From Mesorhizobium sp. 1M-11 (GTDB lineage Bacteria > Pseudomonadota > Alphaproteobacteria > Rhizobiales > Rhizobiaceae), in assembly GCF_001303895.1 (NCBI RefSeq), contig NZ_LJSD01000043.1, positions 62,001-126,000 of the forward strand: a stretch of DNA of 64,000 nt, in the 5' to 3' direction. Positions 11,987 through 35,134 of the stretch are shown here, piece by piece. The notes under the pieces are model-generated. The model ran no database searches and was not told where the DNA came from. It saw only the letters and a program-made list of their open reading frames with translations. Each line of letters opens with the position of its first letter. The stretch's first letter is position 1. The position numbers and the translations under genes are program-made.

Positions 11987-12059
11987 CCGGACAGAGGACG
12001 ACCTCCCCATATCGGGAAAGAATGTCCGGGACGGCCCGGCTCTCCAAAGGAGGGTCGTC
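11987..12059 (+). promoter_or_regulatory. Guanidine-II (mini-ykkC) riboswitch
   Basis: Two small hairpins carry the diagnostic ACGR tetraloops: GAGG-ACGA-CCTC (11994-12005) and CCGGG-ACGG-CCCGG (12026-12039), with a 20-base linker. The Shine-Dalgarno AAAGGAGG (12046-12053) of the following gdx gene can instead pair with the first hairpin: GACGACCTCC (11997-12006) complements GGAGG-TCGTC (12049-12059) with one bulged G. CCGGACA (11987-11993) can also pair with TGTCCGG (12023-12029), disrupting hairpin two. In the known class, guanidine binding makes the loops kiss and frees the ribosome site, giving an ON switch. Confidence 0.88.
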
Positions 12060-32628: not shown

Positions 32629-34053
32629 CTACTCTGCCGCCTGCGCCTGCGCTGGCAGGCCGAGCCATGCACGGCAGTCGGCCAGCGCGCGCGCTGTCGT
32701 TGCCTTCTTCTTGGCAATCGATTTGTCTTTTCCCCGGAAACGGCCTTCGAAACCGTCGGGGCGCAGTTTTGTGCCAGCCTCTAGCGCCGGAAACAGGCCG
32801 AAATTGACGTTCATCGGCTGGAAGGAACGCTTGCCGGGTTCGTCGTCGGATGTGATGTGGCCGCCGGTGATGTGGTTGAGCAGCGCGCCGAAGGCCGTGG
32901 TGGCCGGTGGCAGTGAGATCGGCAAGCCGAGCCACTCGGCGGCAGCGAAGCGGCCGGCGAGCAGGCCGATCGCGGCACTTTCGACATAACCTTCGCAGCC
33001 CGTGATCTGGCCGGCAAAACGCAGGCCGGGCCGGCTTTTCAGCTGCAGCGAGTCATCGAGCAAGGTAGGCGAGTTGATGTAGGTGTTGCGATGCAGTCCG
33101 CCGAGCCGTGCGAATTCGGCATTCTCAAGCCCAGGGATGGTCTTGAAGACGCGTACCTGCTCGCCATGTTTCAGCTTGGTCTGGAAGCCGACCATGTTGT
33201 AGAGCGTGCCCAAAGCATTATCCTGCCGCAACTGCACCACGGCATAGGCCTTGACCGTCGGGTTATGCGCGTTGGTCAGGCCCATTGGCTTCATCGGCCC
33301 ATGCCGCAGCGTTTCGGCGCCGCGCTCGGCCATCACCTCGATCGGCAGGCAGCCATCGAAATAGGGAGTGCCTTCCCACTGCTTGAATTCTGTCTTGCCG
33401 CCTTCGATCAGGGCCTGCACGAAAGCGTCGTATTGCGCCTTGTCCATCGGGCAGTTGATGTAGTCCTTGCCGGTGCCGCCAGGGCCGACCTTGTCGTAGC
33501 GAGACTGGAACCACGCAACATCCATGTTGATCGTGTCGAAATGCACGATCGGCGCGATGGCATCGAAGAAGGCCAGCGCATCTGCACCGGTTTCGGCGGC
33601 GATCGCCTCCGCGAGCGATGGTGCCGTCAACGGTCCCGTTGCGACAATGGCCTGACCCCATTCCACTGGCGGCAGGCCGGTCACTTCCTCGCGCTGGATT
33701 GTGATGAGCGGATGCGCCACGAGCCTGGCGGTCACCGCAGCCGAAAAACCATCGCGGTCGACGGCAAGCGCACCGCCGGCCGGAACCTGGTTGGCGTCGC
33801 CCGAAGCCATGATCAGTGAGCCGGCCAGCCGCATTTCGGCATGCAGCAGTCCTACGGCATTGGATTCCGCGTCATCGGATCGGAAGGAGTTCGAACACAC
33901 CAGTTCGGCGAGATCCTGGGTCTTGTGTGCATCGGTGCCGCGTACCGGACGCATTTCGTGCAGGATCACCGGCACGCCTGCCTCGGCAGCCTGCCAGGCG
34001 GCTTCCGAACCGGCGAGACCACCGCCAATGATGTGAATGGGGTTCTTGCTCAT
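32629..34053 (-). CDS. trmFO: Folate/FAD-dependent tRNA (uracil-5)-methyltransferase
   Basis: A 474-residue flavoprotein that forms ribothymidine at tRNA position 54 with methylenetetrahydrofolate as one-carbon donor. The N-terminal dinucleotide-binding motif is [20 protein letters not shown], followed by [20 protein letters not shown] and [20 protein letters not shown], which are family signatures. The C-terminal FAD part contains [20 protein letters not shown]. The enzyme is widespread in alphaproteobacteria. It begins about 110 bases downstream of the end of the hairpin array on the same strand. Confidence 0.96.
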
Positions 34054-34132
34054 GCGGCCCGCAATAATCCTTCAGCCGTGCGAATGCAATTCTCGCAATG
34101 GCGCTTGGGTCTCATAGGCTTTGATGGAGTTT

Positions 34133-34173
34133 AAAAACACAACACCCGCCGGGGGAGGAGGTCCGGCGGGTGT
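34133..34173 (-). terminator. Terminator formed by the last array hairpin
   Basis: Read on the minus strand, the last hairpin (stem ACACCCGCCGG/CCGGCGGGTGT, 34142-34173) is followed by TGTGTTTTT (34141-34133). The hairpin thus doubles as a rho-independent terminator for the DUF1127-hairpin transcript and insulates trmFO. Confidence 0.85.
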
Positions 34174-34283
34174 CGTTTTGGTGACCGACCTCAGGGAGGA
34201 GGAGGAGGCCGGTCGTATTCGTCGTTGCCCGGGAGGAGGTGGGCTTCGACGAAATTCCTTTCGCCAGATTGGAGAGGGCGAAA
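34142..34283 (-). repeat. Hairpin-array unit 3 (distal, four hairpins)
   Basis: Hairpins at 34259-34283 (no motif), 34220-34251, 34183-34214 and 34142-34173. The order and spacing copy unit 2; the last hairpin has acquired a T-run and works as terminator. Confidence 0.85.
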
Positions 34284-34299
34284 CTCTTTTCGGAAACAA

Positions 34300-34442
34300 T
34301 GCCCGCCGCTGGGAGGAGGAGTGCGGCGGGCACCGTTTCGGTGGTCGGCCTCAGGGAGGAGGAGAGGGCCGACCTATTCGTCATCGCCGGGGAGGAGGTC
34401 GGCTCTGACAAAATTCCTTTCGCCAAATTGAAGAGGGCGAAA
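34300..34442 (-). repeat. Hairpin-array unit 2 (four hairpins)
   Basis: Hairpins at 34418-34442 (no motif), 34380-34409, 34343-34374 and 34300-34332. The stretch that includes 34300-34332 (CGCCGCTGGGAGGAGGAGTG core) is nearly identical to that at 34459-34491, and 34252-34345 and 34411-34504 are near-identical direct copies. This shows growth of the array by unit duplication. Confidence 0.85.
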
Positions 34443-34458
34443 CTCTTTTCGGAAACAA

Positions 34459-34567
34459 CGCCCGCCGCTGGGAGGAGGAGTGCGGCGGGCGCCGTTTCGG
34501 TGGTCAACCCTTGGGAGGAGGTAAGGGGTGACCGTATCCGTCAGGGTCTGGGAGGAGGTAGACCCTG
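34459..34567 (-). repeat. Hairpin-array unit 1 (promoter-proximal, three hairpins)
   Basis: The unit contains hairpins 34542-34567, 34502-34533 and 34459-34491, all with the CCTCCTCCC loop. It corresponds position by position to the next unit about 159 bases away, but its fourth, motif-less hairpin is replaced by the 3' end of the DUF1127 gene. Confidence 0.85.
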
Positions 34568-34577
34568 GCGAAATTAC

Positions 34578-34718
34578 TTAGCTCGCCTTGCGAGCAGCCT
34601 GCTTGATCTCCATGCGGAACAGGCCAATGTCTTCCAACTGGCGGTTCGACAGGCGACCCAGCTGTTCAACCGTGTCGCGATAAGCGCGCCAGTTACGGTA
34701 GTTGCGGATCAGGTTCAT
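34578..34718 (-). CDS. DUF1127 mini-protein 1 (array-proximal)
   Basis: A 46-residue basic protein that starts MNLIRNYRNWRAYRDTVEQL and continues GRLSNRQLEDIGLFRMEIKQ, the arginine-rich DUF1127 (YjiS-like) signature. In Rhodobacter the equivalent gene (CcaF1) lies directly ahead of the CcsR small RNAs and the protein binds RNA. ATG 34718 is preceded by GAGAGAC. The stop lies 10 bases from the first array hairpin, so the mRNA and the sRNAs are one primary transcript. It resembles its upstream copy, so the pair arose by duplication. Confidence 0.9.
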   Translation of the reverse strand: MNLIRNYRNWRAYRDTVEQLGRLSNRQLEDIGLFRMEIKQAARKAS

Positions 34719-34763
34719 TGTCTTGTCTCTCAATTCGGTTCGGGCCGGGCTCGGCCCGATTGG

Positions 34764-34904
34764 TTACGCAGCCTTGCGGGCTACGTAGGCGATGTCGCTG
34801 CGGCTGATGCCGATATCGCTCAGCTCACGGTTGCTCAGGCGGCTCAGCTCGGAGACGGTGTCCCGGTAGCGGCGCCAGTTGCGGTAGTTGCGGATCAGGT
34901 TCAT
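34764..34904 (-). CDS. DUF1127 mini-protein 2 (promoter-proximal)
   Basis: A 46-residue protein starting MNLIRNYRNWRRYRDTVSEL and continuing SRLSNRELSDIGISRSDIAY, identical in its first eleven residues to the following paralogue. It is highly basic at the N-terminus and likely to bind RNA. The two genes are 45 bases apart. The upstream 230 bases (to the DUF2157 gene) hold no other gene and should contain the promoter of the whole unit. Confidence 0.9.
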   Translation of the reverse strand: MNLIRNYRNWRRYRDTVSELSRLSNRELSDIGISRSDIAYVARKAA

Positions 34905-34958
34905 GATATTTGCTCGTTTACGTCTTTGTTCGTTCGTTCATCTTTTCTGTACGGTGCT

Positions 34959-34988
34959 AAAATAGGTGGACCCATATCGATTTAAAAG
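34959..34988 (-). promoter_or_regulatory. Candidate heat-shock-sigma-like promoter of the DUF1127-array unit
   Basis: On the minus strand CTTTTAAA (34988-34981) and, 15 bases on, CTATTTT (34965-34959) inside CACCTATTTTA resemble the CTTGAAA / CCTATNT elements of alphaproteobacterial RpoH promoters; the -35 match is imperfect. The position, about 55 bases ahead of the first DUF1127 start, fits, as does the RpoH control known for CcsR in Rhodobacter. Confidence 0.35.
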
Positions 34989-35134
34989 TGCGATTGACGC
35001 ATGGCAGCAATGCGTTTTGTGCAATGCAACATGGCAACCATTTCACACCGTCGTCATAAAGAAACCAGAATCGGAAAATGACGCCCTGCCAATGATTTGC
35101 CCTGGCTGGCTGGTAATCCGACTAAAATAGTGGA

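Follow-up and report, generated by a model that had tools for sequence, protein, structure and literature searches.

Tandem ar14 (NfeR1-like) small RNA units behind two DUF1127 genes in Mesorhizobium sp. 1M-11

Small RNAs built of hairpin modules with CCUCCUCCC in their loops were grouped in 2011 into one stress-related family (PMC3927594). In the available parts of that paper, the hairpin sets of SmelA075, SmelA099, and SmelC201 comprise three and four hairpins, two in the case of SmelC201, and the Rhodobacter RNA RS0680a has two. The nearest characterised member is NfeR1 (Smr14C2) of Sinorhizobium meliloti, which belongs to the ar14 family (alpha-r14, RF02344; 'cuckoo' RNAs). According to the available text of PMC10746234, NfeR1 has its own sigma-70 promoter and an LsrB box, TGCA-N6-GCAT at -72 to -60 (or to -57, as the discussion gives it), which was bound by LsrB and required for transcription as indicated by gel shift and mutation. 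This RNA has been shown to act as an antisense RNA that blocks ribosome-binding sites; the three loops are redundant in this, an mRNA was silenced in a reporter assay, and the predicted targets are mostly ABC transport systems (PMC10746234). A second system is the ccaF1-CcsR1-4 operon of Rhodobacter sphaeroides, in which a DUF1127 gene is followed by tandem homologous anti-Shine-Dalgarno (anti-SD) RNAs and one 3' terminator. As far as it is described in PMC10253847, this linkage of DUF1127 to anti-SD RNAs constitutes CIN1, and the DUF1127 protein CcaF1 binds RNA.

The window analysed in this study is a stretch of 64,000 nucleotides of Mesorhizobium sp. 1M-11 (contig NZ_LJSD01000043.1, positions 62,001 to 126,000), and all coordinates refer to its first letter. 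On the minus strand at 34137-34577, we found nine hairpin loops with CCTCCTCCC and two spacer hairpins without the motif. The motif occurs in nine exact copies, all on the minus strand, from 34153 to 34558; for the whole 64-kb window a mean of 0.71 was expected, and the maximum in 100 shuffles was four. The minimum-energy fold of 34125-34577 placed all nine motifs in hairpin loops and had an energy of -214.8 kcal/mol, compared with -142.2 +/- 6.4 kcal/mol for 100 shuffles (z -11.3). Both the motif count and the fold energy are far beyond chance. The first-pass annotation had described eleven minus-strand hairpins with nine motif loops, which is confirmed, with the coordinates of the array correct within a few bases; the remaining two hairpins are the motif-free spacers at 34418-34442 and 34259-34283. 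Plus-strand open reading frames overlapping the array (e.g. 34239-34985) were rejected as genes, as they presumably only mirror the array and the DUF1127 genes on the opposite strand.

An Rfam search assigned the nine loops to three tandem full-length copies of RF02344 (ar14) with three loops each, and the scores of 79.7-97.6 bits put all three over the curated gathering score of 58.8. The array is thus three copies of one known RNA rather than nine independent loops, a three-by-three arrangement that the first-pass annotation had not recognised. In the direction of transcription, unit 1 (34453..34577, minus strand, 90.3 bits) carries its anti-SD loops at 34550-34558, 34513-34521, and 34470-34478; unit 2 (34294..34416, minus strand, 79.7 bits) at 34390-34398, 34354-34362, and 34311-34319; and unit 3 (34137..34258, minus strand, 97.6 bits) at 34231-34239, 34194-34202, and 34153-34161. 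Spacer hairpin 1 lies between units 1 and 2, and spacer hairpin 2 between units 2 and 3, both on the minus strand. Each unit is complete, with a length of 122-125 nt, and the fold and alignment gave three hairpins apiece with CCUCCUCCC in every loop and variable stems. In these respects the window agrees with the ar14 family, whose members likewise have three CCUCCUCCC-loop hairpins in about 123 nt, variable stems, and several copies per genome; it differs in that three copies are arranged head to tail downstream of two DUF1127 genes, only the last copy being followed by a U-run. A fourth ar14 copy of the same genome is solitary and lies on another contig, where a phasin gene (PF09361) precedes it in the same orientation. 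The earlier assignment to the cuckoo/CcsR RNAs therefore holds for the anti-SD family and the DUF1127 link, whereas the closest family is ar14/NfeR1 according to Rfam, CcsR having been compared by description only.

SmelA075, SmelA099, and SmelC201 resemble the window in their CCUCCUCCC-loop hairpins and modular make-up; in the window whole hairpin sets are tandemly repeated, and no such repeat is described for these RNAs in the available part of PMC3927594. The modules and the DUF1127 link were thus already known, and the repetition of triplets is the part for which we found no description in the available sources. This applies to arrays in which whole ar14 triplets, as many as seven, share a single terminator, although earlier authors may have seen tandem triplets. 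The two spacer hairpins of the window, taken alone, were not clearly above shuffled sequence (z -0.7 each, mononucleotide shuffles). The TTTCGCC/GGCGAAA type to which they belong recurs in relatives, and z < -2 was obtained for 33 of the genus spacers out of 56, a total that includes a 10-nt stub with no z value.

Two DUF1127 genes, each encoding 46 aa, precede the array on the minus strand, as had been claimed from the sequence: the first at 34764..34904 (PF06568, E 2.6e-17) and the second at 34578..34718 with its ATG at 34718 (PF06568, E 3.7e-13). The CIN1-type order, a DUF1127 gene directly upstream of the array on the same strand, is therefore present. Two such genes stood ahead of the array in 43 of the 44 parsed loci (a single one in L086), and the first loop of these 44 loci lay 22-40 nt downstream, counted from the first base of the stop codon that ends the last DUF1127 gene. 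Downstream and outside the operon lies the conserved neighbour trmFO (32629..34053, minus strand), which was found within the fetched stretch for 35 of 38 genus arrays; among the matches listed, TrmFO was 85-87% identical in eight Mesorhizobium records. A further DUF1127 protein of 88 aa is encoded elsewhere in the genome of the window (L253, G000:C1 near 523510).

The last anti-SD hairpin and the U-run following it (34133..34176, minus strand, ending GUUGUGUUUUU) form a putative Rho-independent terminator. The U-run is interrupted (UUGUGUUUUU) and stands only at the end of the array, the internal units ending GUUGUUUCC and AUUGUUUCC. We compared 48 arrays, 38 from the genus and 10 others, no two of which were identical. 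A U-run of at least four followed the terminal third hairpin in 39 of them and the internal third hairpin in one of 77 cases; of the nine terminal hairpins with no run of four, one (G054) was cut by a contig end. As the U-run occurs almost only after the last unit, the array and the DUF1127 genes most likely share one transcript. Judged from sequence only, a single 3' terminator as in CIN1 and CcaF1-CcsR is present in the window. A U-run confined to the end would be expected of a single transcript with one terminator, and would parallel the ccaF1-CcsR operon; it would place the array in the 3' part of a DUF1127 transcript, as proposed earlier. An AU-rich, RNase E-like site between the units was considered and dropped, because its UUU is base-paired in the middle and last units, where it lies at the foot of the first stem. 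A generic promoter and terminator scan returned one site each, both on the plus strand; as it allowed loops of no more than 8 nt, the 10-nt loops of the array were outside its range.

Subsequently, the stretch ahead of the operon was aligned for 44 loci (14 displayed), and a strongly conserved block was observed, which in the window is the 31-nt TTGCATTGCACAAAACGCATTGCTGCCATGC (34999..35029, minus strand). It contains an LsrB-type box, TGCA-N6-GCAT (35010-35023, minus strand), and is followed by the core promoter candidate CTTTTA-N17-CTATTT (34960..34988, minus strand), from which transcription is expected to start near 34953. The box would then lie at about -70 to -57, a position like that of the LsrB box of S. 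meliloti nfeR1 (PMC10746234). TGCA-N6-GCAT stood ahead of 48 of 50 operons, three pairs of which have identical promoter letters, and was absent in L086 and L093; the background elsewhere in those loci was 0.034 per kb. Among the solitary arrays examined, only 8 of 30 had such a box within 300 nt, and none was found ahead of the solitary ar14 copy of the window genome, which weighs against the explanation favoured below.

PhaR, the regulator of polyhydroxybutyrate, binds TGC-N3-GCA-like sites. A 13-mer, TTGCANTGCACAA, is present at 35017-35029 on the minus strand, and the whole 6.69-Mb genome has six exact sites: one precedes this operon, two precede phasins (PF09361), one precedes a 3-hydroxyacyl-CoA dehydrogenase, and the remaining two adjoin a LysR gene and an MFS gene. 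This distribution suggests a link to PhaR, and a shared carbon-storage regulator behind the sites is possible. The promoter might accordingly belong to the PhaR regulon, instead of or besides responding to LsrB. The company of phasins and the dehydrogenase fits this idea, as does the 12-mer TGCANTGCACAA (the 13-mer minus its first T), which precedes 50 of 50 operons; on the other hand, the candidate site overlaps the LsrB-type box and the exact 13-mer precedes only 31 of the 50. We regard control by PhaR as a tentative option that is rather doubtful at present. Copies of TTGCANTGCACAA also lie ahead of several solitary cuckoo arrays of Rhizobium and Sinorhizobium.

The same region bears on the view that the locus is CcsR proper, namely a heat and oxidative-stress operon driven by RpoHI/RpoHII as in R. 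sphaeroides. The order of DUF1127, tandem anti-SD RNAs, and one 3' terminator is the same in both (PMC10253847). However, the window has two DUF1127 genes, spacer hairpins, and a candidate promoter resembling that of nfeR1, whereas ccaF1-CcsR is described, in the part of PMC10253847 available, with an RpoHI/RpoHII promoter. The conserved LsrB-type box with CTTTTA-N17-CTATTT is near the nfeR1 arrangement (PMC10746234), and the units have three hairpins and match ar14, compared with two for Rhodobacter RS0680a (PMC3927594), the Rhodobacter RNAs being known here by description. Identity with the Rhodobacter stress operon is thus unlikely.

We infer the co-transcription and cleavage of the array, its targets, and its regulator as follows. 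The best explanation, which we consider probable, is that one precursor is processed into NfeR1-like RNAs, and that these occlude ribosome-binding sites, for the most part those of transport genes. A single transcript would start near 34953, encode the two DUF1127 proteins, and run on through the three tandem ar14 (NfeR1-like) sRNAs to one terminator, with the last anti-SD hairpin in this role. The tail would be cut into three-hairpin RNAs of about 123 nt by ribonucleases, for which CcsR suggests RNase E, and the DUF1127 proteins might assist the cleavage. Since S. meliloti NfeR1 has its own promoter, CcsR is the only analogue for such processing from a DUF1127 transcript. The CCUCCUCCC loops would base-pair with ribosome-binding sites rich in GGAGG, chiefly those of transport and catabolic genes, and so prevent translation; the tandem copies would provide a higher dose and more binding loops per transcription event.

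To look at possible targets, we searched the window genome for GGGAGGAG at 4-11 nt before ATG, and obtained 43 sites compared with five for the reversed pattern. The loops of the array can pair with these ribosome sites. Transport proteins (Pfam) accounted for 15 of the 37 open reading frames of at least 60 aa, and the others included sugar or nucleoside catabolism and formate-tetrahydrofolate ligase. With AAGGAGA, used instead of an earlier control pattern (TAAGGAGA) that had only eight sites, transport proteins numbered 0 of 21 (Fisher p 0.0004), although this is a weak control consisting of the first 30 of 138 sites, many with short open reading frames. Restricted to proteins with Pfam matches, the numbers were 15 of 28 and 0 of 8 (p 0.011). 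The bias agrees with the ABC-transporter bias of NfeR1, as a correlation only, and these strong Shine-Dalgarno sequences may simply be good ones.

An uncut transcript could instead serve as a multi-loop sponge, titrating free Shine-Dalgarno sequences or a protein such as the DUF1127 protein or RNase E. The nine identical loops of the array, a family array of 21 loops that is also behind a DUF1127 gene, and RNA binding by CcaF1 (PMC10253847) would suit such a role. It is nevertheless quite improbable, considering that every unit is a complete ar14 RNA of 122-125 nt and that three-loop NfeR1 already silences an mRNA in the reporter assay (PMC10746234).

Next, we examined how the array varies among relatives. 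An ar14 match was found in all 61 genomes of the genus, in 60 above the family cut-off. The 38 genus arrays parsed are a non-random sample of the window's own array, 26 best-scoring loci, and 11 separately fetched ones; they had one unit in one case, two in 19, three in 17 including the window, and four in one. G054, counted with two units, is cut by the contig end, and six more loops lie on a second contig. The exact triplet occurred in 219 of 297 genomes of the family. Here G251 has 11 consecutive loops and G005 an array of 12; G214 (L083) has 16 strict loops, or six units with a relaxed motif, and G235 (L082) has seven units with 21 strict loops behind a DUF1127 gene. The array is therefore real and conserved, its size is ordinary among relatives, and some arrays are longer. 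The first-pass annotation had called it unusually large, a claim that fails in view of the 17 three-unit genus arrays and those of 12, 16, and 21 loops; a record size is ruled out by four units in the genus and seven in the family. The inner units of G235 and the units of G214 are near-identical within their own arrays, which suggests a recent expansion of the sRNA unit in both.

Left out of these counts were the genus loci L017, L027, and L030, second loci of already counted genomes (in the mixed genome G007, L017 forms a separate array of six loops); L001 and L002, at the same place as L003; and the solitary copies or remnants L038, L040-L042, L045, L047, and L048. Among 80 named TrmFO loci, 43 had a cluster of at least two motifs in the fetched stretch, including nine-loop clusters in Mesorhizobium jarvisii LMG 28313 and Pseudaminobacter arsenicus CB3, and 37 had none. 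In most Rhizobium and Sinorhizobium loci of this set the clusters were upstream of, not behind, the DUF1127 genes adjoining trmFO; this placement and the 37 cluster-free loci argue against a general link. A class-wide pattern search found the exact triplet in none of 288 genomes besides that of the window, only three of them of the same order, with a pattern that may miss Rhodobacter-type spacing. At L072, L095, and L133, related arrays linked to DUF1127 have gaps of 75-140 nt from one exact motif to the next, which might mean that the motif has decayed in some loops.

Furthermore, 91 units from 36 genomes were compared, with L046 (one unit) and L037 (cut) also omitted. The loops were near-fixed and the stems differed. 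In first units, 41 cells with a double (compensatory) change were counted against a shuffled mean of 10.2 and maximum of 18, with 98.4% paired; in last units there were 36 against a mean of 7.0 and maximum of 17, with 99.3% paired; and in middle units 20 against a maximum of 11. All three classes thus exceeded each of the 200 shuffles, which ignore relatedness, and slid pairings were only 30-58% paired. Extra pair types did not exceed the shuffles (e.g. 16 in middle units against a mean of 17.2). The loops and stems are hence conserved in close relatives, as anticipated from the single sequence, with fixed loops and compensatory changes in the stems.

For 35 of 36 first units, the nearest neighbour was a first unit from a different genome, and for all 36 last units it was a last unit from a different genome. 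Mean identity was 0.83 between first units, 0.89 between last units, and 0.72 between the first and last units of one array. These values indicate that first and last units are position-specific paralogues; their grouping by position implies that the first/last split predates these species, with the number of middle units changing. It is very unlikely that repeat slippage produced the tandem copies as nearly neutral extras, with only one unit mattering: unit number does vary from one to four in the genus and up to seven in the family, and the near-identical G235 inner units and G214 units look like recent expansion, but the grouping by position across species and the double-change counts in all three classes stand against it.

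Extending the explanation of a precursor cut into NfeR1-like RNAs, we speculate, with considerable reserve, that the operon is a translational brake tunable by copy number. A gated promoter would yield one to seven NfeR1-like RNAs per precursor, lineages would tune the repression of uptake genes by gain or loss of units, and first and last units would keep old separate roles; the gating would be by nutrients or carbon storage, through the LsrB-type and possibly a PhaR-type site. If the underlying explanation is right, two systems studied separately, NfeR1 in rhizobia and CcaF1-CcsR in Rhodobacter, would be joined in one operon, and arrays of 1, 2, 3, 4, 6, and 7 units would offer a natural series for the dose, processing, and loop redundancy of anti-SD RNAs. 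It would also predict regulators, LsrB first and then PhaR, and target genes, namely transport genes with GGGAGGAG ribosome sites. Elsewhere in the window, a match to the Guanidine-II riboswitch was observed on the plus strand at 11990-12039, with 33.0 bits against a threshold of 32.
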